DNA from: Hysterangium stoloniferum
Lineage: Eukaryota > Basidiomycota > Agaricomycetes > Hysterangiales > Hysterangiaceae
Reading direction: 5' to 3'
Assembly: GCA_015178975.1 (NCBI GenBank)
Contig: WHVD01000003.1
Span: 1,922,001 to 1,986,000 of the forward strand
Length of the DNA stretch: 64,000 nt
The notes beneath the pieces were generated by a model. The model worked only from the letters and a program-made list of their open reading frames with translations. It had not been told where the DNA came from and searched no databases. Positions 31,401 through 58,127 of the stretch are shown here, one piece after another (within the stretch, counting starts at the first letter, position 1; every line of letters starts with the position of its first letter). A program made the position numbers and the translations under genes.

Positions 31401-34400
31401 GAACGCCACTCCCAAGGTACCTAACGGTAGACGTATCAGGAGGAACGTCAAACTGGCTGCAAGAAAAGAAAGCAAAAGACCTAGAGTTCAATACCCCCAA
31501 TCCAGTCGACTTATGAAAGAGGATTTGACTATTATCTATCGCAGAAGGGACCCTCCGGGTGGATATAGTATTGGGATTTCAGCATTACACGTCTACGGAC
31601 GCGTAGGGAACTCAGAAGCCTCAAATCCTATTAAAATCAGGCTGGACGCTGGGGCTGACCTCTCCTTAATCTCAGAGGATTTATATAAGGAACTAGAGGA
31701 TCGCCCTAAACTCAAGCAAGGACTCAAGCTGCACCTCGTGCAACTTACCGGTAATGCCAAAGTATTAGGATATGTCAACGTCCCCATTTATCTCAAGGAC
31801 GACACCGGTATACTCCTTAAATTTACTGCCAAAACATACGTTGTCCAAGGTATGACTGTCCCAATCCTTCTTGGAGAAGACTTTCACGTGAACTATGAGA
31901 TCGGGACACTGCGAGACCAACTGCTGGGTTCCAGATTGATTTTGCCTGGGAGAGCAGGATCTATCCCAGCCAGTTCTTCCAAGGAGCCGCAGCCTTTAAC
32001 CTTTTCAATTAGCAAGATCCCCTTTGAGGAATTAGCCAATGACTCGCCTGAATTGACTTCCAAACCAGACAAAGGAGTGCGTACTGAAAGAGTCGCACAG
32101 GCCTTGCAAGATTGTACTGTAGAACCGGAATCGGCTCGATTAGTACCAATCTTTGTAGGAGATCTTATTGGTGACCAATGGATAGTCGAGGGAGTGGTCT
32201 TGCAGAATGACGATGGGAGTATACTAGCGGCTCCCACCACCGCCATCTCTAGGGAATGTGCCGTGATACCTCTCGCTAATCCCTCTCTGATGCCAAGAAT
32301 CATCAGACGAGGGGAAACCGTTGGATTAATTCATGATGTGAACAAATGGGCCCAGACTCCTAGATCTTCGACTGAGAAAGCATCGATGCAGTCAATGGCA
32401 ACCAAGATCACCCATCTCGTCGAGAGCCTATCAAAAATAGAAGAGGAGCGTGTCCTTAATCCTCAATCCTCCAGACTGCCCCCAGAACGGGAACTCGCAG
32501 ATGATTTCGACCCGGCAGGTCCTAAAACGTCAGAGGTTGCCACCACGGAAACATTTCATGTGGAAGATCTGCATAAGCTGGTTAACTTAGGACCTGACAT
32601 CCCTACGATGTCTCCTCCCACTTGGAGTCGGTATTAACTAAGAATGTCCTAGCCTTCGGCGTAGACGGGTGACTGGGACAAGTGGATGTCAAGGTCAATG
32701 TCCCATTGAAAGAGGGCATGCAACCTATTTCAATGTCAATGTTCCCAACCTCCCCAGCTAATAGGAAAGTCATTGATGAACAAATGGATACTTGGTTCCA
32801 ACAGGGAGTAATTGAACCGTCCAAGAGTCCTTGGGGGGCACCAGCCTTTGTCGTCTATCACAACGGGAAACCACAAGTAGTGATCGACTATAGAAAGTTG
32901 AACAGTCTAACAATTCCTGATGAATTCCCGCTGCCACGCCAGTTGGAAATCATGCAAGCGCTTTTGGGCTCCAACATCTTATCTTCCTTTGATGCACTAG
33001 CCGGTTTTATCCAACTTGAAATGTTAGAGGAAGACAAGCCGAATACTGCCTTCAGATCCCATCGAGGACTGTGGCAATTCAGGGGAATGCCCTTTGGACT
33101 TCGTAATGGACCTTCTATATTCCAAAGGGTTATGCAAACCGTACTTGCACCTTACTTATGGATATTCTGTCTGGTTTATATTGACGACATTGTGATCTTT
33201 TATAAGACATGGGACGATCATCTAGACCATTTAGATCAGGTTTTACAAGCCATAATTGCCACAGGAATCACTCTCTCACCCAAAAAGTGCTATGTAGGGT
33301 ATAATTCGATTCTACTACTAGGACATAAGGTGTCTAGACTTGGCTTTTCGACCCATCAAGAAAAGGTCGCCGCTATATTAGAATTGGCTACGCCTTCTAA
33401 GATAGCGGATCTTCAACGTTTTCTAGGAATGGTTCTGTATTTCTCTGCGTACATACCATTTTACTCCTGGACGGTCGCTCCACTTTTCAACCTCTTGAAG
33501 AAAGGAGTTCGTTGGAATTGGGATTCTGAACACGCCCGAGCCTTTGAGGACATCAAGGTTGCGTTGAGCTCAGCTCCAGTACTCAGACACCCTGCGAGCG
33601 GTATGCCTTATCGGTTATACACAGACGCTTCGGACTTTGCGCTAGGATGTTGTCTCCAACAAATACAGAAAATGACGCTCAAAGACCTTAAGGATACGAA
33701 AATTTATGCCCAAGCACGAGCAGCCTTCGATCAATCACGAGACGTGCCCATCTTCGTTACTCGTTATAAAACCAAGGAGCCGGAATTCACCTGGACGGAT
33801 TCCTGGGCCGCAGATTTTGACGACACCAGTGTCACAGTCGAACATGTTATCGCCTATTGGAGCCGTATGTTCAAGAAAGCAGAATGTAACTATTCAGCCA
33901 CAGAGCAAGAAGCGTTAGCCGCTAAAGAAGGATTAGTCCATTTCCAGCCCTTGATCGAAGGCGAACATATCCTTCTGATCACTGACCATGCGGCGTTACA
34001 ATGGGCCAGATCTTACGAGAATACTAATTGTCGACTGGCCACATGGGGGGTGGTATACGCTGCATACCCCGGTCTGGAAATCCTACATAGAGCAGGACGA
34101 ATACATAGCAATGTTGACCCACTGTCCAGACTTCCTCAAGTACCGGACTATGCTAGCCCCGTGAGAGACGACCTTTTACCGATTGTAGCGGATTCTTATA
34201 ACCGGAATAACGATGAGACATTATGGGAGAACAAACCAGCAGAAAAAGCCGTCTTTCTCACTCATCACGAGTTAGTCGAACCAGTCGGAACCATAGAAGA
34301 GGTCCCCCAAACGAAATGGGATTTGCACAACCTCCCCAGAAATGATGAAACCGATGAAGCAAATTTTACTCTCTCTAATCCACAATTGCTTATAGAGATC

Positions 34401-36103
34401 AACGAAAATTATGCTAAGGAACTTTGCGACGGATACCAGAAGGACCCTGCCTTCAGAAATTATTACGCCACCGATCCCATTTCTCCAAACATGGTAACTA
34501 CTCCTTCGCATTATTTCATCGGCAAGAATAAGCTATTGTTCTTTCAAGATTCGGACTGGAAAAGTTGAATCTGCATTCCTAGTAGCATGACGATGACCAT
34601 ACTCAAGCTGATACATGATAACCCCTTCGAAGGAGCTCATGCAGGCGGCCACAGGCTCTTTAATCTGATGAAAGACCGTTTCTTCTGGCAAGTATGTTGC
34701 ATGACTGTGTGGCGTATGCTCGCAGCTGCGACATATGCCAGAAAACTAAAATTGATCATTTCGCTTGACAAGGAGCTCTTCGACCTGCGGATGTACCCCT
34801 AAGGCCATTTGAGGTTGTCTCGATGGACCTGATTACCAGATTGCCTCCTTCTACAGAGGGTGCTTATTCTGCCATCTTCATCGCCATGGATAAACTCACA
34901 TGTTTCTTAATCTGTGAACCCACCACTTCAGATCTATCTGCAGAAGGATTCGCGCGAATCTTCGTGAATAAAGTAGCCACTCCTTTTGGTCTGCCTTCAA
35001 GGATAATCTGTGATCGAGACAAGAGGTGGACCTGTAGGTTCTGGAGGGAAGTCTGCAAGGTATACGGAAGTGCCCTTGCAGTATCCTCGTCCCACCACCC
35101 TCAGACCGATGGTCAAACAGAGAACGCTAATGCTATTGTGGAGAAAATGCTCAGAGTGTACTGCGCCTCTTCGAAGGAGGAATGGTCTAAATGGACTCAA
35201 GTAGTGGCTCATACCTACAATTCGACGGTCCAAAGCTCAACAAGCTATGCGCTGGCCTTTTTGCTGATGGGCTACTTACCAAGAGGAATGTCTAGCTGTC
35301 TGGGAGGGGATGACCCTGTGGTTCCCAGAGAATTATCGGATAGCCCTGTAGCCGACCAATGGATCTTAGAATTGGAAAATCACTGACAAGTGGTGCGGGA
35401 TTCGATTGCACGAGCACAAGAAACCCAAGCTCGCAGTTACAACAAGAGACGGAGATTGGTGGAAGATATCTCAGAGGGAGATTATGTTCTGATTAATCCC
35501 CATTCTCTCGAGCTCATCGAAGCCAAGGGACCCGGAAGGAAACTTATACAAAGACGGATAGGGCCGTTTGAGGTCTTGGAAAAGATCAATCCTCAAGTTT
35601 TCTGACTCCACATTCCCTCGGAATATCAATTACATCCAGTGATTAATCGAGACCATCTTAAAAAGTACCACCTCTTTCCAAAGGAATTTGGATCCAGGGA
35701 GCTACTCGCTAACCCTCGAGAACTCAATTATAATGACGAGGAGTACGAAGTAGAAGCTATAGTAGGGCACAAAAAGCATCGAAATCGACTCCTTTTCCAG
35801 GTTTGATGGAAAGGATATGGATCGGAGGAGGACACTTGGTTAAACGGCAATGACCTTCGTAATGCTCCCGCTCTCCTTAGAGCTTACAAGACTATTTATC
35901 AAATTTAATGATCATTTCACATCCTTACGACGACAACGCTGTTTATCTACTTCTAGCTCTACCCCCCCACTTTCTTCCCCCCTGGCCTTTCACTTCAATA
36001 ACCGAGCAGAGCTTGAAATTAATATAAAATACGTAAATTCGCTAAAGAAAATTTTATTCCCCCTATCTCTTCCCTCCACGTCAACCTCTCTAATCAGTAT
36101 ACT

Positions 36104-40549: not shown

Positions 40550-41103
40550 TGTAAGGGCAACCCCTGCTGGGCCTGCAGAACTCACACAAGGCTAGCAGGA
40601 GGGAATCCAAAGGTATATTACAACTGCTATATATACAAACAACTACCTAACTCACCTAGCAGGAGGGAATCTGAAGAGAACAGTCTAAGGAATTCCCCCT
40701 GCTGTTAGAATTAAAGTGCAGGTATGTGTCAGTACATCATGGATGCGAACAAAAAGTGTTAGTATTAGTAAGCAACTGTACAGTATTTACTTATTGAAGT
40801 ACATGTTTTATTAACAAGACAAATACAAGATTATTATACTTCAACACCTGCAAGGTGTGACCCATAGGCACCCAGTAATCTAAAAATAGTTAACTCTACC
40901 TAATACAGAACAGGGGCCCTTCCCACAATGGAGCACTAATGCTATGAGCTCCTGAAGTTAGTCACCTACTCCTCAGAGACATGTATTAGCCAGAGTAGTT
41001 GATATCCACAGGGAGAGGGAAAGTGACAAAAGACATGGGGTTGGACAGTGGACTCAGGGACTTCAATAAGAGACAATGGTGCTCCCTGGGGTCTGTGACA
41101 GTG
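40550..41103 (+). repeat. LTR-like repeat, family D (copy 1)
   Basis: It begins TGTAAGGGCAACCCC and shares a series of blocks with the inverted copy at 57343-58127: ctagcaggagggaatc, aaggaattcccc, ctacctaatacagaacagg, ctcctcagag and ggggtctgtgacag. An internal segment including a second ctagcaggagggaatc block is unique to this copy. The right end is not defined and no target duplication was found. Confidence 0.65.
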
Positions 41104-41383: not shown

Positions 41384-42188
41384 TGTTAAGTTGCATGCAC
41401 AGAGCTTATTGGAGGGTTTCCAGAGAAACCCATGGGAAAGCTGGTAGGACTTGGCTTCAGCTTATAGGCTGCACCCTCGTGAGATTGTGTCATCCAATTT
41501 CAGATGGGTGGATGGGAATTCTGGGAGTAGTTGGAAGTTGAGAGGTTGGGCGATGATGAGTCAGAGGTCAAGTGATAGAAGGGTCGGAGCCTGTGGGCTC
41601 CGACGAGTAAGAGTGGTGTGTTTCAAAGAGGAGAATAGAGCGGAAAATATACTGAGATTACTGGGGAGAATCTAAGCTGATTTTCTGACTGGATTGTATG
41701 TATGTACAACATCTGCCAGATTATATAGACTGTGGAATGAATAACATACCAAATCCAGTAATAATGAAAACTAAACTAGCAAACATGAAATGAGATAAAT
41801 AAACACCAAACTTGGTGTTAGGAATGGAATCAAATGGAGTGGAGTCCAAATTGTGACAGGTTGTAAAACCATAATGGGAACAGGGTGGGAGCAGAGTCTG
41901 AATCATGACAGGTCATTGGACCATAATGGGAATGGGGCTCAGTTAGAGAGCTGTTGGGTTTTCCAAGTGGGGTCTGGTGACTGGTGTGTGGGACAGGGTT
42001 GGAGATAGACAGGAGCAGAGTCTGGCAGGTATTCCAGTGACTGATACATGAAGTAATGAAGGTTGAGCATGGACAGGTCTGATGTATGGAGTCTAGCAGG
42101 TTTTCCAGTAAACTGATAATTGGTGCATGTAGGGTGCGGGTGCATATAAGTTAGTGCCTGGAGTCTGGCGGGTTTTCCAGTTGTAACA
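41384..42188 (+). repeat. Solo LTR, family A (copy 1)
   Basis: The ends are TGTTAAGTTGC and AGTTGTAACA with an exact 5-bp target duplication GCATG (41379-41383 and 42189-42193). It shares its sequence with 42277-53447 (composite) and, inverted, with 51224-51813. It contains the core acttggcttcagcttata near 41450. No internal region is attached. Confidence 0.92.
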
Positions 42189-42325
42189 GCATGTGATTTA
42201 ATTCAGAAACTTATTTAAATTTTGTTAATTATTTATAATTCTATACTCTTATGTACTCTTTGAAATCATTGAACCTTGTTAAGGTGTGTGCAGGGCTTAG
42301 CAGAGGGTTTCCAGAGAAACCCACA

Positions 42326-42703
42326 GGTATTCCAAAGAAACCCACAGGTATTCCAAAGAAACCCACAGGTATTCCAAAGAAACCCACAGGTATTCCAAAG
42401 AAACCCACAGGTATTCCAAAGAAACCCACAGGTATTCCAAAGAAACCCACAGGTATTCCAAAGAAACCCACAGGTATTCCAAAGAAACCCACAGGTATTC
42501 CAAAGAAACCCACAGGTATTCCAAAGAAACCCACAGGTATTCCAAAGAAACCCACAGGTATTCCAAAGAAACCCACAGGTATTCCAAAGAAACCCACAGG
42601 TATTCCAAAGAAACCCACAGGTATTCCAAAGAAACCCACAGGTATTCCAAAGAAACCCACAGGTATTCCAAAGAAACCCACAGGTATTCCAAAGAAACCC
42701 ACA
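42326..42703 (+). repeat. 21-bp tandem array, 18 copies
   Basis: The unit begins ggtattccaaagaaaccc and ends aca. 18 units appear identical by eye, with partial variant units at both edges. The seed is part of the LTR itself (ggtttccagagaaaccca in the other family A copies). Because 21 is a multiple of three, all frames stay open, which explains long but meaningless open frames over it. Confidence 0.95.
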
Positions 42704-43312
42704 GGTATTCCAGTAGGACTTGGCTGCAGCTTATACATAGGCTGTCCCCTCGTGAGATTGTGGTGTCCAATTTCAAATGGGTGGACAGGAAACCTGGGGA
42801 GTCTGGGTGTAGTTGATAGGTTGAAAGATCAGTTGGGGAGCCCATGGGCTCTGATGAGGATGAGGGGTCAGGTGGTGATGGGTCAGGGGTCAAGCGATAG
42901 ATACATATGTAGGTCAGAGCCCATGGGCCCCAATGAGATAAGTGGTGTGTTTCAAAGAGAGGAATAGAGTGGAAAATGTACTGAGATTACTGGGGAATCT
43001 AAGCTGATTTTCTGACTGGATTGTATGTACAACATCTGCCAGACTATATAGACTGTGGAATGTATGTATGTTATACCAAATCTAGTAATAATCAGATTCA
43101 AACAAGTAATCATGAAATGAGATAAGTAAACACCAAATTAGGCGTTAGGAATGGAATGGAATGGAGGCAGAGTCCAAAACATGACAGGTCATTAGACCAC
43201 AATGGGAATGGGGCTCAGTTAGAGAGTTGTCAGGTTATCTGGGCAGAGCCTAGTGACTGGTGCATGGAATGGGGTCAGACATAGACAGGCTTCGATGTGC
43301 ACAGGTCCCAGC

Positions 43313-43587
43313 TGTTGAAACAGCTCAATATGTAGCTGAAGATCACCCAAAACACTGTGAGGGATGAGATGAAAGCAAGCTCTAAGGTTGCTTTCCCACA
43401 GCCCCACAGGTGTGATGATGCACTGGGTGCTTATTTACGTGCCCATGTTCCTGGGAATCTACACAGTTGCCTAACTAGGTAATTCACTAACTACTGCACC
43501 TACAGTGCTGGGAAAAATACTACAAATATCAGAAAAATATAGGGAGTAATATAGAACATCATAAAGTTGTAATATCATACTCTAACA
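43313..43587 (-). repeat. 3' LTR of the copia element
   Basis: TGTTGAAACAGC to CTCTAACA. It is shorter than its partner by a duplicated stretch of about 45 bp present only in the other LTR. It is followed on the element side by cccccc, the complement of a polypurine tract. Confidence 0.92.
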
Positions 43588-46500
43588 CTCCCCCCTGATC
43601 TGACAGCTCTAACCCAATCCTAACATTGATCTTAAATACTCTACCTTTGGCTTAGCCAAAGGCTTTGTCAATAGATCAGCAGGCATCTCTGAAGTTGGTA
43701 AATGCACAACTTTAATCTTCCCATTCTCTACTTCCTGTCTTAACCAATATGTCCTCAAATCAAGATGCTTCATACAACCATGGTGTTCAGGATCTCTTGC
43801 AACTGCAATGGAAGACTGGTTGTCAAGATATAAAGTGGATGAAGTCCTTTGTGGATATCCTAATTCCTCAAACAAGTTCCCACAACCAAAGCACCTCTTG
43901 AGCAGCTGATACTGCTGCAATATACTCTGCCTCAGTAGTGGAAAGAGTTACAATTGTTTGTAGTTTACTCTGCCAACTAATTGCTCCAGTACCCATCTTG
44001 ACCACATATGCACCAGTTGACTTTCCAGTGGACTTATCACCTCCATGGTCACTATCTGAATAAGAAACAAATAGTTCCTTATCATCACTAGGGCCATAAG
44101 TCAGGCCTAAGTCAAGAGTGCCTTTGAGATAATGAAAGCGATGTTTTACTGCCAACCAATGAGTCTTTCCTGGATTATGATTAAATCTGGCCAATACTCC
44201 AACAGTATAGGCAATATCTGGACGAGTTGCAACAGCCAAATACATGAGAGAACCCATAGCATGAATATATGGAATATATTTCATGTATGCAATATCCTCA
44301 GGTGTTACTGGAGCCTGATCTTTACTCAATTTCAAGTTAGGCTCCATTGGTGTACTGATGGGAATGCAGTCAGCAAGACCATAGTGTTTCAGCATGTCCA
44401 AGATATATTGCCTCTGTGAGAGAGTGATAGTTTGCTTCTTCCTGTCCCTTTCAATACCAACACCCAACAAGTAAGTGATTGGACCAAGATCATGAAGTTT
44501 GAAGTGTCTCTTCAAATCATCTTTAAGCTTCTTGATAGCCTCCTTAGATTTAGATGCAATAGTCATGGCACCTACAAATACTGGTAGAACAACTTTAACA
44601 CCATCCTTTTGGTAGACCCAGATACTGTGATCACACAATACCTGCTTGAAACCCAAGCTGAGCAAGACAGCATTCAACTTCTTGTGCCAGATCTGGGGTG
44701 ACTGACACAAACCATAAAGTCCCTTTAGGAGTAGTAAGAACTCATCACAAGCACCTTGGTGAAAACCTTCAGGTTGCTGTAAATACACTTCCTCTTCAAG
44801 TTCACCATTCAAAAATGCAGAGGAAATATCCACACTCTCAAGTTCCATATCCTCAAGTGCCGCTAATGCTAAAACAGCAGGCAGAGTGGCCCATTTGGCA
44901 GTAGGAGCAAATGTATCAGTAAAGTCAAAACCTGGTCACTTTGCATAGCCTTTGGCAACAAGATGAGCTTTGAACTTGTCAATGGACCCATCCTTCTTAT
45001 GCTTAATCATAAATACCCAGTGAGAGCCAGTAGCCTTATGACCTTCTGGAAGTTTAGCCAATTGAAAGGTACCATTTCCAAGCAATGATTGCATTTCAGC
45101 ATATGCAGCATCATACCACTTGTCAGCATCAGGACTTTGTAAAGCCTCTTTCAGAGTTCTAGGTGAATTATCATGAGCACTAGCCTTGTAGGAAAACTCA
45201 AAGGCTTCATCCACAGAAACATAAAGATCTCCTTCATTGGCAGCTAAAGCTTCTTCCTCAGACTCAACTGGATGAGTAGAAGGACCTGGTATAGGATCCT
45301 CTGCTTCATCACTGGACTCAACTACAGGAGTAGGTTCTCTATAGTTATGAATATTAGTTTGCCAGAAGGGCTTGGGAGGGCCCCTATTTCTAGGTGGATT
45401 CTGACATGGTTGAGGAGGAGGACTTGGTGAACATTCAGAGCTGGAATTAGAGCTGGAGCTAGAATCAGGAGCCAAAGCATTATCCTAATCATCTCCCACC
45501 TGATTTGGTCCCTGTTGAACTCTCACCTGAGTAGACCCAGAAGGTTCAGGAATAAACATTCCAATGAATTGTGGATCATTGGGAAAAATATTAGGAATAT
45601 TAGGAATAGAAGGTGTGGTCTGTTTGGACAGGCCTGGCAGGACTTTCTCATCAAAAACACCATTATTACTGACTATAATCTTTTTAGTCAGTGGATTGTA
45701 AAATAACCAACCCTTATAATCTGAAGGATATCCAATGAAGACACACTTTTGTGTGTGAGAGCCAAGTTCAATACATTGATTCTTCTGCACATATACATAG
45801 GCAGTGGATCCAAATACCCTAAGATTTGACATATCTGGTTTTCTGCCATGGAAAGCAGTATAGGGCACAGAGTGCTTCAGAGCAGTAGTAGGGGAGTGAT
45901 TGTGTGCATAAGTAATTGCAAGAACAGCATATCCCCAAAAAGAAGGAGGAAGGTGGAATTCAGTCAAAATTGAAGTGGATCCTTCTTCCAGTGTCCTTAG
46001 GAATTAAAACGCTCAGCCACACCATTCTGGTAAGGCTCACTTCGGACAGTATGCTGCCGACTAATGCCAGCATTTGCAAGGAAGGCATCAAATTCCTTTG
46101 ATATTTACTCTCCACCCTTGTCATCCCTAAAGATCTTAATTGTCTGACCAAGTTTATTTTCAATACTGGCCTTGTATGTATATCTTAAAAGCCTCAAATA
46201 CATCACTCTTGTTTTTGAGTAATGCAGTCATAGCATAGCATGAGGCATCATCAATGAAGGTTACCCAGTAGCAAAACCCTTCCAGAGTTTGTGTAGGTAA
46301 TGGACCATAAACATCACTGTGAATGAGTGCAAGTGGTTTAGTATAGCATGTTGTTGCCATTTTATTAACCACTCTGTTCTGTTTGCCAGCTAAGCAGGGT
46401 TCACAAATAGGATCTGGAGAAGTCTGAGAGTCAATCTGAATCCCAGTGACCAAGTCCCCTTTTATAAGCTTTTGCACATCAGCATGGTTCAGATGACTGA

Positions 46501-48402
46501 AATGACAATGCCAAAGTGTTGAGTCTAGTGGACAGGTTGTAACAAGACCAGCATATTCTGTCATAGGTACTGTAATTCCATTCAAGTATGCAGTGTTATT
46601 TTCATTAACAGTTGTAGTAAAGAGTAACACTCTATTCCTATAGAAGGACATAGTGGAACCAAAGATAGAAACATGGTAGTTCTTTTTCTTTGTTAAGTAC
46701 AAAACAGAGAAGAAGTTATTTGTAAGATGGGGAACATGAAGAACTCTTTCAAACTCTAATATTACATTTCCTTTGCCTTTAGGCTTGAACCGCACTGCTC
46801 CCATCCCTGCTGACATAATGGTATGTCCATTTGCAACTTGGATAGGAATGTGAAATGGTTTGTAACTTTGAAAACCAATGACAATGTGGTGTCATATGGG
46901 AAGAAGCACCTGTATCAGCAGTCCAGTCAGAACTAGCATAGACAAGGAGAGTACAAGTGGGATCAGAAGAATCAGGGATAAAAGCACTTGCATTTCCAGC
47001 AGACTCTGGCTGTTTCTCCTCAGATGGCTTCTCTGAGGTATTAGCCTTGACTGCCTTCTTTCCCTTTTTACGATGTCCCTTCTTAGCATTATTCTGTGCA
47101 GTTATGTACTGAAAACAGTCCTCCTGAATGTGACCAGGAGTATTGCAAAATGGGCATGGGACATCACCAGAAATACTGGGAGTCTTTGACACAATTTTGT
47201 TAGCTGTCTCTCTTTCTCTGGCAGCCTGCAAACTTTCTTGCAATGCAAAGTGTGTTTTGACATCAGAGAAAGAAATAGCAGTATTCATCATTAAAGATGA
47301 AGTCCAGACAGAGTCAGATTCAGGCAATGCACGAAGCAAAGTGAGAGTAGCAAGCTCATCATCCAACATGGCAAGAGTGTATCCTTCAGGACGCAAACTC
47401 TGGACACATGCACAAACGTTGTCAACACGACTCATCAATGAAGTCAAAGACTCTTCAGGTTCCTTTTGAATGTTAAAAAGGTCATTGTAGGCACTAAAGC
47501 GAACTGCAGGGAGTTGCTTATTGTGTGCCTTTTCAATTTTAGACCACATCATCAGGACCATCATCAATGTCAACATGAGTGCGCTGTGTAGGTCCAAGAG
47601 AGTGCCATATAATACCAGCTGCTTTATTAGAGCATTGCTCCCAGGCAGGGAGCAAACTGGGATCAGTAGGCTGCTTCTCTTTGCCAGTGGCAATGGACAG
47701 ACAATTCTCCATGCACAAGAAGCCAATTATATCATGTCTCCAATCATCATAATTACTCTTCTCCAAAATAACACAATGCTTGTGGCTATCAGTGGATGCC
47801 ATTGGCACAAGGCTTTTTAACCAAGGTATTTAAAAAATATCTAATTGGACAAGCAGTTGTAACACCACCTAGTACAAAAGGGTTACTTTGATATTGCTAG
47901 GAAGGTAAAAACAAAGGCCCACTGAAGAGCACAATGCCAACAAATCAAGTCAAGTACCTGTGAGATAAAATCCAAGATGATGTACCACAGACTCAAAGAA
48001 GAGTCAGGGGTGTCTGAGATGTGAGGAGATGGTCAAGGACAGTGTCTAGAGATGTCCTACAACACCAATAAGTGACCAGAGAAAAGGCTGGGTCACAACA
48101 CACAAAAAGATCCAAGGACACCTAAAACACAAAGGAGCACCAAGGGAGGTGCTAAAGAGCAAGGGTGTAGTGGACGTTCGATGGGCGCCTATTTGAAATT
48201 TGACGTGGCAGCTTTGAAGATAAAGCGACGACAAAAAATCTGGCCTAAAAATCGTCCAAAACAGTCCAGAAACAAATGAGATATGAGCCAAACAAAGTGC
48301 AAGGTGTTTTTGATAGTAGATAAAGTGGATGGGGGTGCTATGGTGTCTGTAAGGTTGAAAAACAGCTATTAATTTTGATTTTTTAAGCCTAGGCCCACAA
48401 CC

Positions 48403-48721
48403 TGTTGAAACAGCTCAATATGTAGCTGAAGATCACCCAGAACACTGTGAGGGATGAGATGAAAGCAAGCTCTAAGGTTATATTGAGTTGTAGCTACTTA
48501 CCTGTGAGGGATGAGAGCAAGCTCTAAGGTTGCTTTCCCACAGCCCCACAGATGCACTGAGCGCTTATTTAAGCGCCCAGGTTCCCGGGAATCTACATAG
48601 TTGCCTAACTAGGTAATTCACTAACTACTGCACCTACAGTGTTGGGAAAAATACTACAAATATCAGAAAAATATAGGGAGTAATATAGAATATCATAAAG
48701 CTGTAATATCATACTCTAACA
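48403..48721 (-). repeat. 5' LTR of the copia element
   Basis: TGTTGAAACAGC to CTCTAACA. It contains an internal partial duplication around gtgagggatgagagcaagctctaaggtt (two copies near 48446 and 48511) that the partner lacks. Confidence 0.92.
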
Positions 48722-48983
48722 CCAGCAGAGTCTGGTGACTGATGTGTGAGACACAAAGGGTCAGGCATGGACAGGTTCGATGTCCAGGTTCTGGCAGGTA
48801 TTCCAGTCAACTGATAACTGGTGCATATAGGGTGTGGGTGCATATATGGTAGTAGTGTTAAGAACTAAAATGAGAGGTTTGGGGAACTGACGGGGACTGA
48901 ATGGAAGGACTTGGCTTCAGCTTATATGCTGCACCCTCACAAAGGTACCATCAGACATCCTTAAATTTCAAATGTATAAGGTA

Positions 48984-50590
48984 CAGTGGGTCAAAAAACT
49001 GCCCCAATGTTTGTGTATTTTAGAAAGATTGATATTGTGTGAAGGAATGACATCAGCAGAAATTCTGAATAATTCACATGATATACTAGAACATGTTGGC
49101 TATCTACCAACTTAAGAAATCATGTGATTCCAATCAAAACTCATTGCTCAATAAATCAAACAAAATAATCACTCATTGGGGCAGTTTTTTGACCCTCTAT
49201 TATTTTACAATCTAATACTTTGTATGACCCCCCTTTGCCTTTAAAACTGCCTGTATCCTCCAGGCATGCTTTCTATTAGCTTCTGGCATGTCTCTGGTGG
49301 TATTTCAATCCACTCCTTTGCCACCCTGTCCCATAATTCATGTACTCCTTTAGGTGGTATGTCATATTGTTGGAGTTTGGCCTTGAGGTGTTGCCAGAGG
49401 TGTTCAATGGGATTTAGATCAGGTGATTGGGCAGGCCACTTCATGGGAATGATGTTATTGTCAGAAAACCACTGGTCTGCCTTTTTTGAGGTATGTTTTG
49501 GATCATTGTCCTGTTGGAAGTACCACTTATCCTCAGCCATCTCCAAACTTTCAATGCTCTCCTCCACTCCCTCCTCCAAAATCTCACAATACTGCACTGC
49601 ATCCATGTTCCCCTGCACCTCTATCAGCTTCCCCACCCCATTCCAGCCCATGCACCCCCAAACCATCAAGTTATTCCCCCCTCCATGTTTGACAGTTGGT
49701 GTGGTGGTCCTGTCTGATACTGGTTCCCCTTGTTGCTTCAAAACATATACCTTCCCATCTGACCCAATCATATTGATTTTTGTCTCATCAGTCCACAACA
49801 CCCTCTTCCACTACTCCATAGTCCAATTTTCATGGTATTGGGCAAACTTTAGCCATTGCTGACAATGAGACCCCTTGAGCATAGGGACTTTCTTCTTTGT
49901 TGCTGACCTAAAGCCAGCTTCCTTCAACACATTCCTAACACTCTGAGGAGTGACAGAGGTAGATCTGATGGAATTTATGAATTGGGTGGCTTGGACAGCA
50001 TTGTCAAGCTTCCCAGAGCTGATTTGATGGATAATTGACTGTTTATCATAAGGGGAAAGCTTGGAAGGATGGCCACCAGGATGATTTTCCTTATCCCCCT
50101 CTACCTCCCTACTGATCCTGCCAATAGTACCCTTCCCCAGGCCAGTCCTAGCTTGAATTTGATGATGGGAATACCCCTCATTGAGGAGAGAAACAACAGA
50201 AGAATGCTTTTCAGCAGAGATGGATTTCATAGTGGTGGTAAGGAGTCAAGGAGATGAATGGACAAAGTTCAACATGCCAAATTAATACAAATAAGGTCAC
50301 ATGACATGTTGATGATTCACATGACCCACTCCTACCTTATACTGGTGTGTAACATTGAAAATCAGAGAAAATAATAGAGGGTCAAAAAACTGCCCCAATG
50401 AGTGATTATTTTGTTTGATTTATTGAGCAATGAGTTTTGATTGGAATCACATGATTTCTTAAGTTGGTAGATAGCCAACATGTTCTAGTATATCATGTGA
50501 ATTATTCAGAAGTTTTGCTGATGTCATTCCTTCACACAATATCAATCTTTCTAAAATGCACAAACATTGGGGCAGTTTTTTGACCCACTG
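48984..50590 (-). mobile_element. Tc1-type DNA transposon, nearly intact (Tc1-1)
   Basis: The element is 1607 bp with TA target duplication (48982-48983, 50591-50592) and terminal inverted repeats of about 223 bp (48984-49206 and 50368-50590) that differ at only a few bases by eye. The outer 20 bases of each repeat (gggtcaaaaaactgccccaa) occur again, inverted, at the inner edge of the same repeat (49174-49195 on the left). It encodes one DD34E transposase with a single stop. It is the youngest-looking DNA transposon in the window, inserted in the family B LTR. Confidence 0.93.
49241..50230 (-). pseudogene. Tc1/mariner transposase, DD34E, one in-frame stop
   Basis: About 330 codons in a single frame. 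Helix-turn-helix DNA-binding region (HHQIQARTGLGKGTIGRISR) at residues about 20-45, then the catalytic core: WTDETKIN (first Asp), FQQDNDPKHTS (second Asp), QSPDLNPIEHLW (Glu), with 34 residues between the second Asp and the Glu. One TAG codon (49811-49813) lies after NWTME, where the relative at 53.7 kb has VEDWKRVLW; otherwise the frame is open to SMPGGYRQF. It catalyses cut-and-paste transposition at TA. This copy is probably inactive because of the stop, unless that is read through or is a sequence error. Confidence 0.88.
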
Positions 50591-51223
50591 TACATAATAC
50601 TCAGTGATCGGAAACCAAGCTGTATGCGAACAGTCAGAAACTGAAGTGACAAATATCAGAGTCGAGGTTGAGGTCGTAAATGTAGGTTGAGTTATGAAAT
50701 CAGATGGTGTCAGAATGCAAGGGTTGTGAACAGATAATGAAGTCAGAAACTAGAGGTGTATCTAAGTCAATATTCTGATTGCTTAGTAGCTACATTACAG
50801 CGGGTTTATATACAAGTTATTGACATCTAGAAAATACTAACTAAGGGAAGAGTGGAAATACCAATGACAAATAAACTTGACCAAGAATAGGAAGGTTATG
50901 ATAAGGTCAGAGGCTGTGAATAACTGAGGGTGGTAACTACAAAAAAGGAAACAGTTTACAGTATATACAGTGACTCAAAAAACCCTTCGCATGTTTTGTA
51001 CTTTAGACTTATATCCCTGATAACTCAAAGAATAAAAATGCAAAAATATCAAGAATATTTGTGAATATGCTCTATCATATCTAGATTATGGAAGTATGGT
51101 GCCATTACATAAGATCCAAATATGGAAATAATAAAAATATTTATATGCAAGAGACTCATGTGAAGGGTTTTTTTGCTGACCACTCTGACCCACAAATCTA
51201 TTTATATTCAGTACTTGGTATAG

Positions 51224-51813
51224 TGTTATGACTGGAATTCCTGCCGGACTCTGGGCACTAACTTATATGCACCCTCACCCTATACGCACCAATTATCAGT
51301 TTACTGGAATTCCCGCCAGACTCCGTATGTCAGACCTGTCACGATTCAGACTCCACTCCACTCCATTCCATTCCTAACACCAAGTTTGGTGTTTATTATC
51401 TCATTTTATGTTTGCTAGTTTAGTTTTCATTATTACTGGATTTGGTATGTTATTCATTCCACAGTCTATATAGTCTGGCAGATGTCGTACATACAATCCA
51501 GTCAGAAAATCAGCTTAGATTCTCCCCAGTAATCTTAGTATATTTTCCACTCTAAATTCCTCTTTGAAACACACCGCTCTTACTTGTCAGAGCCCATGGG
51601 CTCTGACCCATCTATCACTCGACCTCCGACCTATCTATCTTGACTCCCCGACCTCTCGACCCACAAACTCTGCCCAGACTCCCCGGGATTCCCGTCCATC
51701 CATTTGAAATTGGACAAGACAATCTCACAAGGGTGCAGCCTATAAGCTGAAGCCAAGTCCTACTGGCTTTCCCACAGGTTTCTCTGGAAACCCTCCATGT
51801 ACGCACCTTAACA
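51224..51813 (-). repeat. Solo LTR, family A (copy 3), inside Tc1-2
   Basis: Bounded by TGTTATGACTGG and CACCTTAACA with an exact 5-bp target duplication TATAG (51219-51223 and 51814-51818). It is the inverse of family A copies 1 and 2, lacking the long tandem array. The insertion lies at the 3' end of the Tc1-2 transposase. Confidence 0.92.
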
Positions 51814-51818
51814 TATAG

Positions 51819-52878
51819 CCACCCTTTGCCTTCAACACAGCTGCAACCCTCCTAGGCATACTCAATCAAATTCTGACACACCTCTGCATCAATCTTGTTC
51901 CACTCCTCCACCCTTTCCCACAACTCTAGTATCCCTTTTGGTTCAACCTCATACTTCTCCAGCCTCCTCTTGATATGATCCCACAAGTGTTCAATGGGGT
52001 TGAGGTCTGGAGACTGTGCTGGCCATGGGAGGACATTGAAATTATTATTTTGAAACCAAGTCTGGGCCTTCTTGCAAGTATGCTTGGGGTCATTATCTTG
52101 CTGGAAGATGACATCATCCACAGATTTTCCATAATAGTTGAGGCTGGCTTGAAGGTCCTCCTCCATAATCTTGAGATAAAGGTCTCCATCCATCCTCCCA
52201 TCTATCTTGCAAGCATACCCAGGTCCTTTCCACAGCATGCACCCCCATACCATCACAGATCCTCCAAACTTCTGAGTCCCCTGAACCAGCCTGTTACTCA
52301 AGCCCTCCCCAGTCTTTTTCCAGACCCACTTCCTCCCATCTGACCCCAACCTGTTGATTTTGGTTTCATCAGACCACACCACCTTCTTCCAGTCCTCCAC
52401 AGTCCAATGCTAATATGCTATAGCAAAGTCCATCCTTGCCTTCCTATGCTTCTTGCTAAGAAGAAGCTTTTTCTTCTTCATCACAGCCTTCATCCCCAAC
52501 TATCTTGAGATGATTGCACACAGTTTGGGTAGAAATGGGCTGGTTGGTGAGATTCCTAAGGGCTTTGGTCACATCAACAGCAGTGTCAGCCTTCCCAGAA
52601 CTGATGAGATGCTGTGCATAGTGAATGTTGGTAGGGGAAAGCTTTGGGGGATGACCACCAATGGACTTAGGAAGATGAGAACAATGCTTAGAGTGAAGCT
52701 TTGAGACTGTGCCAATGCTATGACCAATAGAAACTGCAATGTGGCTAGCTGAATGACCAGCATCAAGCAGTGAGAGGATATGATTCTGGCTGGCAAGAGA
52801 CAAAGTGCATATCTTGGGAATTGGGGTATAACTAGTTGCTAAAGGTGATATATTTATACTCCAGTACAACATGGTCAT
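51819..52878 (-). pseudogene. Tc1/mariner transposase, DD34E, frameshifted (Tc1-2)
   Basis: The N-terminal HTH region (SASHIAVSIGHSIGTVSKLH) is in one frame, then a frameshift near 52495 (after HLKIVG), a stop before HWTVEDWKKVVW near 52410, then the core WSDETKIN, FQQDNDPKHTC and QSPDLNPIEHLW with 34 residues between Asp and Glu. A further frameshift near 51868 changes the expected ESMPRR into EYA and a stop. It is distantly related to the Tc1-1 protein. Not functional. Confidence 0.85.
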
Positions 52879-54454
52879 GTGACATCATGTGATTTTGTTG
52901 ATATGACCTAATTGGAGGTAAACAATCAATAAGGTCACATGACTATAAGCATTTATAGTCATCAAAGTTGCCAGCAAAAAAACCCTTCACATGAGCCTCT
53001 TGTATATAAATATTTGTAATATTTCCATATTTGGAGCTTATGTAATGGAACCATACTTCCATAATATAGATATGACAGAGCAGACTCACAAATATTCTTA
53101 ATATTTTTGCATTTTTATTCTTTGAGGTATCAGGGATATAACTCTGAAGTACAAAACATGCAAAGGGTTTTTTGAGTCACTGTATGACATAGGTGAGACA
53201 TAGAATAAATGGATCATCAAAGGATAAAAGGATGTATCAGAGTATAACCAGATAGTACAAGTATAATTTGACAGGGGCTGTAGTGGGGTTTGATTGCCAT
53301 GAGGGTGTACATCAGTGTTGGGTTTACTGACAGTGGCCAATATGACGATGTGACAATAACTTGAGGTGATAGCATCGTTGGATATCTTTGGGTTGCAACA
53401 CAGTCATAACAAGTAGCCAGAGTCTGGCAGATCTTCTAGTCATAACAAACCTAAAATATGTACATGTTTTTTCATTTTTGAAAGGTTGGGTTAGAATGGA
53501 TTACCAATATAAGCAGAAAATCTAAGTAAATTCATCAAAAGTACTATAGGATCATGGCTTGAAGGTAAGCCTTGGTTCATGTGATTTGAATCAAAATCCA
53601 CTGAATAATAAATAAAGCAAAACAGCTACTCATTGGGACAGTTTTTTGACCTATGATTGTTTTACTTTCTAGTACTTTGTATGCCCCCCTTTTTCCTTTA
53701 CAACTGCCATGATCCTTCTAGGCATACTTTATATTAGATCTTGGCAGACTTCTGGTTGGATTGCATTCCACTCCTCCACCACTTTCTCCCACAATTCATG
53801 TACTCCTTTGGGTGATGTATTATATTTTTGGAGTTGGTGTTTGAGGTGTTCCCAAAGATGTTCTATGGGGTTAAGATCAGGGAATTGGGGAGGCCAGGAT
53901 AGTGCTTGAATTTCCTTGTCCTCAAACCATTTTGTTGCCTGCCAAGATGTATGTTTAGGATCATTGTCCTGCTGAAAGTAATGGTTGGCCTCCTCCATTT
54001 CCAACTTTTCAAAACTTTCCACTACTCCCAGCTCCAAAATTTGACAGTATTGTTCAGCATCCATCCTCCCCTGCACTTCTATGAGCTTTCCCACCCCATT
54101 CCAACCCATACAACCCCATACCATAAGGTTATTTCCTCCTCCATGTTTGACTGTTGGTGTTGTAGTCCTGTCAGACACTGGTTCTCCTCTTTGTTTCCAT
54201 ACATATGACTTTCCATCTGACCCAATCCTGTTAATCTTGGTCTCATCTAACCATAACACCCTTTTCCAGTCCTCCACAGTCCAATTTTCATGATATTGGG
54301 CAAATTTGAGCCACTTCTGACAATAAATGGCTTTGAGCAATGGTCACTTTTGCTTTGTTGCAGAGTAAAAACCATTCTCCTTCAGTATATTTCTGACTGT
54401 TTGGGGAGTGACAGGGTTGGAGATGATAGAATTAATGAATTGGGTATCCTGAAC

Positions 54455-55365
54455 TGTTAGAGTATGATACTACAGCTCTAATATAGTCTATTATGTTACT
54501 GTGAAGAGTCGATAGATTCTGACCGTTCGATATACGAAGAATAGTATCTATTCAACTACTATTAGCAGATATTGACCGTACAGTACAATACCGTCGATTA
54601 CCAGACAAGCTGTGCTAGTAAGAAGACACGCTATGCGTCACAAGAGCAACTGTACAGTTGCTCTTGACGGCTAGAATGAACGAATGAAAGAGTTGACCTT
54701 CACGGTACAACTCATAGCTAGATGTAGAATAGATAATCAACGCGAAGCTGAATATCTAGAGTAAAGAAATAATAGCACGAGTTGACTATAATGTCGACTA
54801 GCGCAAAGACCTTAGATTGGAACTCGACCTTCGCGGTTTGAGTCCAAAGTGCGTTAGTATGCAAGAGAATACTACCTTTAAGGGTAGTTGAAATGTTACC
54901 CTTGACACCTCTCGCTATTTGACGTCTGGGTCGTTTACGAGGTGGTGTCTGCTGGGTAAAAGTTGTCTGTCTCTTTTGGCGCCGAGAGTGCCCATACGTA
55001 TACACAAAGCTTCGAACTACAAAATAAAGGTGTGCTCGAAATATAGAAAGAATATAAAGAAAGAAAATAAAAGGTAAATAATAAAGTACTATAATCCAGC
55101 TATTATTCCTTAGTCCAGGTATGCATATATGCATACCCTTTACAGTTACCTATATTTCTCTCTATATTTTTCTCATATTTGTAGTGTTTTTCCCAGCACT
55201 GTAGGTGCAGTATTTAGTGAGTTACTTAGTTTGGTAACTCCTATGTGCTTAGATAAGCACCCAGTAGAATACTCCACTGTGGGTGTGGGAAAGTCTCCTT
55301 AGTGTTTACTTTCCAATCACACACTCACAGGGTGTTCTGCAAAGCATTATTCAACTGTTTCAATA
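54455..55365 (+). repeat. copia solo LTR, itself split by a gypsy LTR
   Basis: It begins TGTTAGAGTATG and ends CTGTTTCAATA, the inverse of the LTRs at 43313 and 48403, with an exact 5-bp target duplication TGAAC (54450-54454 and 55366-55370). Own sequence is 54455-54499 and 55145-55365, interrupted by 54500-55144. Confidence 0.9.
54500..55144 (-). repeat. Ty3/gypsy solo LTR inside the copia solo LTR
   Basis: Bounded by TGTGAAGAG and CCCTTTACA with an exact 5-bp target duplication GTTAC (54495-54499 and 55145-55149). Its inverse matches the 5' LTR of the gypsy element at 27.9-28.4 kb, most clearly at the end (gaacggtcagaa ... ctcttcaca). It is the most recent layer at this spot. Confidence 0.9.
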
Positions 55366-55740
55366 TGAACTACATTATCAAGCTGTCCAGAGCTGGTTTG
55401 ATGGATTATTGACTGTTTGTCATGACCAGAAAGCTTGGAAGGACAGCCCCCAGGATTGTTCTCCTTGTTCCCATCCACTTCCCTACTAATCCTATCCACA
55501 GTACTCTTGCCTAGACCAGTTCTTTCCTGGATTTGGCAATAGGAATCCCCTTCATGAGGAGAGAGACAATAGAAGAGCATTGAGTAGTGGAAATAGATCT
55601 CATGATGGTGGTAAGAAGTCAGGATGTAGTTGAACCACTTTAAACCTGTCAAAGAAATACAAATAAAGACATGTGACATGTTTTATTGTTCCCATGGCCT
55701 CCCTATGCCTTGTACTGGTGCATAACAGTAGGAACACAGG

Positions 55741-56481
55741 TGTTAAGAACTGAAAACTGACTAATGTCAGTAGGCCAATGGGGACTGATCGGAAGGACTT
55801 GGCTTCAGCTTATATGCTGCACCCTCGCAAATATCCGTCAGGTGTCCTTAAATTTTGGATGGGTGAAGACTAGTCTTAATGAGTACCTCTCGGCGAGTTA
55901 CCGATTGGGACCAAAGGATAAGTCGAGTGTCGGGCCAAGGGGTCAGGGACTGAGAGTGGGCAAGCACACGTGAAGGTGGAGGGCAGAATACATAGTATGA
56001 GACTTCTAGAGATGTATGAGGGTATTCTGAGTCGATCTTCTGATTGCCTAGTAACTACAACTACAGTGGGTTCATATACAAGTATTCAGTGTCTAGAAAA
56101 TACTAACTAGGAGAAGAGCAGAAAACATTATTGACAATAAGCTTGACTAGGAACAGGAAGGTTATTATTTGTTTGGAGGCCATGAAATAACCGAGAGTGG
56201 GATTACGAGAAAAGGAAATAGTCCGAGGGTTACAAGTATATATAGACATATGTGAAACATAGAATAGAACAGATCATCATAATAAAAAGGGACATATCAG
56301 AGTTTAACCAGATAGTATGAGTATATTTTGATGGGGGCATAAATGGAGTTTGATTGCTGCGAAAGCATATGTCAGCATCAGGAGACCAATGGTTTCCAAT
56401 GTGATGACTTGAATGATAACTTGAAATGTCGATAGGCAGCGATAACCTCGGGGACCGTCGGGTTGCCACACAGTTGTAACA
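55741..56481 (+). repeat. Solo LTR, family B (copy 4), inside Tc1-3
   Basis: The ends are TGTTAAGAACTG and GTTGTAACA, with an exact 5-bp target duplication ACAGG (55736-55740 and 56482-56486). Full length and similar to copies 1 and 2. Confidence 0.92.
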
Positions 56482-56712
56482 ACAGGTCAAAAAAATAAAG
56501 AGTCAAAAAACTGTCCCAATGAGCAGCTATTTTGTTGTATTTATTATTTAATGGGTTTTGATTCAAATCACATGAACCAAGGCTTACCTTCAAGCCATGA
56601 TCCTTTAGTACCTTTGATAATTTACTTAGATTTTCTGCTTATGTCAGTGGTCCATACCAACCTAACCTTTCAAAATTGAGGAAACATTGGGACAGTTTTT
56701 TGAGCCACTGTA

Positions 56713-57342: not shown

Positions 57343-58127
57343 TGTCAGGGGATCCTCTGTCACAGACCCCAGGGAGCACCATTTCCTTATCTTATTGAAG
57401 TCCTGTCACAACCGTCACATGTCACATATCGTCACAAACATTCAAAGGTAACTTTCGACAACTCTTCGACCTATCGAATTCAACTCGACAAAACTGAACA
57501 TTAATCGACACCATCGAATCTCTTTTGACATGTCTCATGTCGACGTCATACATGATTTCATAATTAGTTCATAACATAGTCATAACGATATGACGAAAAG
57601 CATAAAAGGGCTATGAAAGGAGTGAGGAAAGTCAGTTGAAATATCTGTATATTAGTGATATTAGTAATCTACTTTGTCGTAACTTCTTCAACAAATACTT
57701 CTGTGAGTTCTCATGACTGGTAATAGCCTCTTACTTCATCAACAGGGTGAATATATACTTCATCGAACAAGGCTTTCGAGTTCGATTAGTAGAATATTAT
57801 TCAATTCTATCGAAGAATAATCGATTCATGACAAGTCCCTGAGTCCACAGTCGAACCCCATGCCTTTCATCACTTTCCCTCTCCTTGTGGATATCAACTA
57901 CTCTGTCTAATACATGCCTCTGAGGAGTAGGTGACCAACTTCAGAAGCTTGTAGCATTAGTGTTCCTTTGTGGGAAAGGCCCCTGTTCTGTATTAGGTAG
58001 AGTTATTTTTAGACTACTGGGTGTGTATGGGTCATATTTCACAAGGGGAATTCCTTAGACAGTTTCTCTTTGGATTCCCTCCTGCTAGCCTAGTGTGAGT
58101 ACTACAGGTAGTAGGGGTTGCCCTTAC
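57343..58127 (-). repeat. LTR-like repeat, family D (copy 2), with nested insertion
   Basis: It runs TGTCAGGGGATCC to GCCCTTACA. Flanking 5-mers CTTGT and CTCAT agree at three of five bases, so the target duplication is doubtful. The sequence is the inverse of 40550-41103. It contains the 430-bp insertion at 57404-57833. Confidence 0.65.
57404..57833. repeat. LTR-like insertion, family H, in family D
   Basis: The ends are TGTCACAACCG and GATTCATGACA, with an exact 5-bp target duplication AGTCC (57399-57403 and 57834-57838). It interrupts a stretch that is continuous in family D copy 1 (gacttcaataaga). The second half matches 205-423. No coding sequence. Confidence 0.85.

Follow-up and report, generated by a model that had tools for sequence, protein, structure and literature searches.

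A stack of four nested transposon layers in the genome of Hysterangium stoloniferum and the order of insertions it suggests

The window analysed here is a stretch of 64,000 nucleotides from the basidiomycete Hysterangium stoloniferum (assembly GCA_015178975.1, contig WHVD01000003.1, positions 1,922,001 to 1,986,000 of the forward strand), whose genome of 111 Mb is rich in transposons. It holds a stack of four nested transposon layers (Table 1), and our analysis confirms that this stack is real. As an earlier note made from the sequence alone had described it, a long terminal repeat (LTR) of family A, here A_out, encloses a copia element and an LTR of family B (B_out); B_out in turn encloses two Tc1 elements, Tc1-1 and Tc1-2, the second of which encloses another family A LTR in inverted orientation (A_in). 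All ends lie where that note had placed them, and its claim of an exact target duplication at every junction was borne out: read directly, all six insertions end at the ends of their families and are flanked by exact duplications. With the ends fixed and equal base use, the chance of obtaining all six is about 4e-15, i.e. (1/1024)^4 x (1/16)^2. For the left end of Tc1-2 we take 50968, in agreement with the empty site and as the mirror image of the right end; the script of our search for nested elements had chosen 50959.

Table 1. Features of the stack and of its immediate surroundings, in window coordinates (TIR, terminal inverted repeat).
Feature	Position	Strand	Remarks
A_up	41384-42188	-	further solo A LTR just left of the stack; duplication GCATG
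A_out target duplication, left	42272-42276		AACCT
A_out	42277-53447	-	outermost solo LTR, Ty3/gypsy type, TGTTA...TAACA; hosts copia element and B_out
21-bp tandem array	42301-42712		in A_out; ~19-20 units
copia element	43313-48721	-	inside A_out; duplication CCAGC; LTRs 43313-43587 and 48403-48721
B_out	48856-53411		solo LTR inside A_out; duplication AGTAG; hosts Tc1-1 and Tc1-2
Tc1-1	48984-50590	-	inside B_out; TA duplication; TIRs with 3 mismatches in 223
TACATA	50591-50596		right of Tc1-1; candidate excision footprint
Tc1-2	50968-53182	-	inside B_out; TA duplication; TIRs with 18 mismatches in 221; hosts A_in
A_in	51224-51813	+	solo LTR in Tc1-2, opposite in orientation to A_out; duplication TATAG
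A_out target duplication, right	53448-53452		AACCT
Tc1-3	53464-56710	-	just right of the stack; hosts copia-like solo LTR and B2
copia-like solo LTR	54455-55365		in Tc1-3; duplication TGAAC
B2	55741-56481		solo LTR of family B, inserted in the right-hand TIR of Tc1-3; duplication ACAGG

Family A is, judging by one of 100 loci fetched from the same genome (L022), the LTR of a Ty3/gypsy-type element. This locus is a full-length A relative in which a pair of A LTRs, 90% identical over 817 aligned bp, surrounds coding frames with Pfam matches to Retrotrans_gag (3e-7), the integrase core rve (3.9e-9) and a Tf2-1-type SH3 domain, SH3_Tf2-1 (5.8e-19); its coding strand reads the LTR the opposite way from A_out, whose strand was set by this comparison. 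The TG...CA ends and exact 5-bp duplications of A_out, A_in and the neighbouring A_up likewise resemble that type, unlike their state as solo LTRs and two peculiarities of individual copies. A_out carries a 21-bp tandem array that was found in only one of the 100 fetched loci (L056, 17 units), and A_in is without about 210 bp that most of its counted relatives have (22 of 31 counted gaps are near 210 bp), the query parts overlapping by 8 bases at the gap as in a short-repeat deletion. Family B, seen here as LTRs, is like A in its ends and a short shared block. The copia element matches RVT_2 (5.4e-42), Retrotran_gag_2 (6.9e-7) and GAG-pre-integrase, and its LTR pair (11 mismatches in 267 aligned positions) and 5-bp duplication are those of Ty1/copia; it shows no notable departure from that group; a block of some 50 bp is present in one LTR only. 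Tc1-1 and Tc1-2 are Tc1 elements of different families, with the TA duplication, terminal inverted repeats and DDE_3 match (2.4e-14 and 1.1e-14, respectively) of Tc1/mariner elements; the transposase of Tc1-1 is split over two frames by a stop. They differ from that group in being nearly free of CpG dinucleotides and in having TIRs about 220 bp long in which the outer motif recurs, inverted, at the inner end (48984-49206 and 50968-51188); this second copy was seen in a repeat search for Tc1-1 and by eye for Tc1-2 and Tc1-3.

The earlier note had also stated that removing each guest restores the order of uninterrupted host copies, and had proposed aligning the hosts with such copies as a check. 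We queried the fetched loci with the joined flanks of each host, leaving the guest out, and counted an empty site as crossed when a single alignment held at least 25 bp on each side of it, the denominator being the loci with any hit; a crossing was called gap-free when the 15 bp on either side of the join were free of gaps. As only the 40 best candidates are scored in the genome search, closer relatives may be missed. Five junctions have empty sites in other copies, and four of these are gap-free in some of them. Within A_out, the site of the copia element is crossed by 46 of 58 loci (gap-free in 13 of 46) and that of B_out by 38 of 49 (36 of 38); the Tc1-2 site in B_out is crossed by 27 of 31 loci (4 of 27), and the A_in site in Tc1-2 by 31 of 37 (19 of 31). 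In all 20 fetched relatives of Tc1-2 the A_in site is empty, at an offset of 0 or -1. The left junctions of A_in with Tc1-2 and of B_out with A_out each occur once genome-wide at up to 3 mismatches.

The fifth of these sites, that of Tc1-1 in B_out, is crossed by 10 of 74 loci (L071-L080). With Tc1-1 set aside the window reads TACATA, and eight of the ten crossing B copies read TA (the remaining two, L078 and L080, depart from the window otherwise). The host is not fully restored by removing Tc1-1, since these 4 extra bases remain, and here the statement of the earlier note is not exact. TACATA has the form of a Tc1 excision scar, a TA duplication with two terminal bases, CA, and is a further likeness to Tc1/mariner elements; probably, an earlier Tc1 visited and left this site before the present Tc1-1 entered one of the two TAs.

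Nesting of the same families recurs elsewhere in the genome. Our nest search covered the fetched loci, a sample picked for similarity and not at random, and of its 31 rows we used 11 in nine loci together with six from the window; L053 and L078 give two rows each, one per Tc1 reference. Eleven rows were dropped for array slippage or for want of a clear guest (L001, L005, L006, L020, L028, L031, L064 and four window rows of A), and three A-in-A-like rows were not used (L024, L033 and L056), with near-matching duplications (4/5) in L033 and L056 and none in L024. Family A lies in B at L070 and B in A at L057; a Tc1-3-like element hosts A at L053, a Tc1-like element hosts B at L078, and Tc1-1 relatives lie in A at L093, L096 and L097 and in B at L089 and L090. 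The Tc1-2 reference of the search (L004) is a single TIR of 219 bp, and Tc1-2 as a host rests on the empty-site comparisons and on another Tc1-2 copy, L016, where a second A LTR (543-1378), with 5 bp of overlap in the host, lies some 30 bp away from the position of A_in. At L048, LTR ends occur without a matching duplication. Because A and B nest both ways, and A lies in Tc1-2 at least twice, overlapping activity is general here: the A and B lineages and the Tc1 families were active over overlapping periods. By raw count, at least five of the 20 fetched relatives of Tc1-1 are enclosed by an LTR of family A or B.

The simplest reading of the stack is that A_out came first, followed by B_out, Tc1-2 and A_in. 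A_out, B_out and A_in would each have inserted with a 5-bp stagger and then been reduced to solo LTRs by recombination between their LTRs, the Tc1 elements would have arrived by cut and paste at TA, and TACATA probably stems from an earlier Tc1 that entered the Tc1-1 site and departed again. We consider it likely, with a probability of about 0.87, that the cluster was built by such successive transpositions while A and B were active over overlapping periods. Sequence divergence agrees only loosely with this order and cannot date it, since a terminal branch includes time spent in an unsampled source copy and thus bounds the insertion age from above. In trees of 11 to 62 sequences drawn from the best matches (the Tc1-3 tree, with 2 sequences, was left out), the terminal branch is 0.064-0.069 for the large piece of A_out, 0.014 for Tc1-2 and 0.004 for Tc1-1. 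Private substitutions, unique to the window copy among its six nearest relatives, number 8/535 in A_out, 7/693 in B_out, 11/965 in Tc1-2, 3/479 in A_in and 4/1161 in Tc1-1; they are highest in A_out, and A_in is below Tc1-2.

A number of observations weigh against this history. No uninterrupted counterpart of the outermost A_out site was found, as none of the four loci with a hit crosses it, and for this reason the support for the A_out level comes from its duplication and its family ends. None of the ten crossings at the Tc1-1 site is gap-free, and TACATA could instead be a plain 4-base change. The comparison of branch lengths between the two A copies, as suggested by the earlier note, gives a divided answer: the large piece of A_out has a longer terminal branch than A_in (0.029-0.035), but the right piece of A_out (134 bp) has one of only 0.019, and the branch of A_in exceeds that of its host Tc1-2. 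The three pieces of B_out give 0.069, 0.033 and 0.000, and B_out has marginally fewer private substitutions than its guest Tc1-2, with overlapping intervals. Among the nests elsewhere, the duplication differs at two of five positions for A in B (L070) and at one of five for A in the Tc1-3-like element (L053), and none was recognised for B in A (L057).

The note's further claim, that family A was active both before and after B and Tc1-2, holds for the A lineage on the simplest reading of the order. It does not hold for one family in the strict sense, since A_out and A_in belong to different subfamilies of that lineage. Their identity is 81% across 404 columns, or 75% by BLAST across 509 bp, and in a tree of 62 A sequences they fall in separate clades at a path of 0.61 substitutions per site, each grouping with its own best-match copies, whereas their own relatives stand at 0.09-0.19; seven branches along this path have support of 0.92-1.0, others down to 0.05. 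A_up is closer to A_in (identity 0.885) than to A_out (0.843). The same distances could be pressed further, to the point that the two copies are different families that share LTR sequence, in which case no persistence of one lineage would be implied, and the short block common to A and B also speaks for this. We consider it unlikely, as A_out aligns with A_in over the 509 bp and other copies join both in one tree.

Successive transposition into the stack must also be weighed against a history in which A_in entered Tc1-2 elsewhere and the composite then jumped into B_out, so that A_in would not post-date the arrival of its host. Tc1-family elements move by cut and paste, and A_in could have ridden in with Tc1-2 for that reason; both TIRs are in place around A_in in a composite of 2.2 kb, the terminal divergence of A_in is greater than that of its host, and TACATA suggests excision in this genome, which makes this history slightly more probable. 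The single genomic occurrence of the junction between A_in and Tc1-2, with 20 of 20 relatives free of A_in, argues only weakly against such a jump because a cut-and-paste move leaves no copy; the independent A LTR in L016 also counts against it, as it shows that A does insert into Tc1-2 copies. On balance this history seems improbable to us; of the note's claim that A_in followed Tc1-2, what stands is that A_in is younger than the origin of the lineage to which this Tc1-2 copy belongs, and not necessarily younger than the landing of Tc1-2 in B_out. That one or more junctions were joined by the assembler from different repeat copies is far less probable still: assemblers err in repeats of high copy number, as these parts are (737, 5172, 3947 and 1830 candidates at first look), but exact duplications stand at family ends in all six cases and the contig extends over at least 1.98 Mb.

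The stack lies within a larger cluster. The empty site of A_up, on its left, is crossed, with gaps, in the one locus with a hit (L058). On its right, Tc1-3 lacks about 23 bp at the outer end of its left TIR, with 11 bases of different sequence between it and A_out (53453-53475). The site of the copia-like LTR in Tc1-3 is crossed by all 23 loci with a hit, the two best being L053 and L078 and the next two crossing loci listed being Tc1-1 relatives at 76%; the B2 site is crossed by 21 of 23. Four Tc1-3 copies (C1, C527, C117 and C420) have about 370 bp between the stretches that the window's two guests hold apart. We considered whether A_out itself sits inside Tc1-3 as a fifth level and rejected this, given the 11-base spacer, the loss of the outer 23 bp or so of Tc1-3 and the lack of a crossing in any of four loci. 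An inverted repeat flanks the cluster (40858-41063 and 57833-58034, 89% over 206 bp), its arms about 17 kb apart. Elsewhere in the window, a frame at 32673-34568 has matches to RVT_1 and RNase H, in a stretch at 0.84 of the expected CpG that is not depleted, and Rfam gave nothing at the gathering threshold within the window.

The Tc1 elements are poor in CpG. Tc1-1 has none where its composition predicts 68.5, and 20 fetched relatives (L081-L100) have 32 against 1334 expected (0.024), whereas their flanks have 232 against 466 (0.50). A single CpG remains in the left part of Tc1-2, 31 occur in 22,808 bp of 21 copies of its central piece (window 51814-53182), and two stretches counted in Tc1-3, including 53464-54449, have none. 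At least 39 other copies of Tc1-1 are 96-99% identical to it; as these copies are young, their source element was probably nearly CpG-free itself. A pS of 0.62 and a pN of 0.15 (proportions of synonymous and nonsynonymous differences) in the transposase piece compared between Tc1-1 and Tc1-3 suggest selection on the protein, and an open frame of 344 amino acids is present in three of the 20 relatives of Tc1-1. One may suppose that these Tc1 families shed nearly all CpG yet stayed mobile, an escape from CpG-directed methylation or deamination that would let the least-diverged layer, Tc1-1, go on spreading, the CpG-poor state being of benefit to the element. We regard this idea as doubtful. The central piece of Tc1-2 has 13 CpG sites among its 21 copies, eight of them in at least two, which counts against complete absence, and several read CA or TG in the remaining copies, as in ongoing decay; other stretches of the window are equally CpG-poor (0.04 at 58-64 kb), which counts against a special property of Tc1. 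Frames at 29-34.6 kb stand at 0.84 of expectation. CpG-directed mutation of transposons is described for some Basidiomycota, and as weak in two transposon-rich species (PMC4352252). Our search of the literature by title and start of abstract found no CpG-poor, still-active transposon described among the matches listed.

Such stacks, and the reading of order from them, are already well known and constitute ordinary biology. The papers on REANNOTATE (PMC2672092) and TinT (PMC3014933) describe how guest-in-host order ranks insertion times, and that on TRANScendence (PMC5657132) treats interruption chronology as well as the overlapping activity of two families, citing TEnest as a tool for nested transposons. 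Our reading shares that principle with the published tools and is unlike them in scope, as they build a genome-wide interruption matrix and we read one stack by eye. What is known about transposons is unchanged by it. The terminal branch of A_in, longer than that of the element in which it sits, advises caution in dating by branch length, and young Tc1 copies nearly free of CpG would matter more than the stack if they truly escape methylation. For this fungus, the order of four insertions can be read from the stack, perhaps together with the trace of an earlier Tc1 visit, and the nesting in both directions at other loci means that two LTR lineages and the Tc1 families overlapped in time in its genome.

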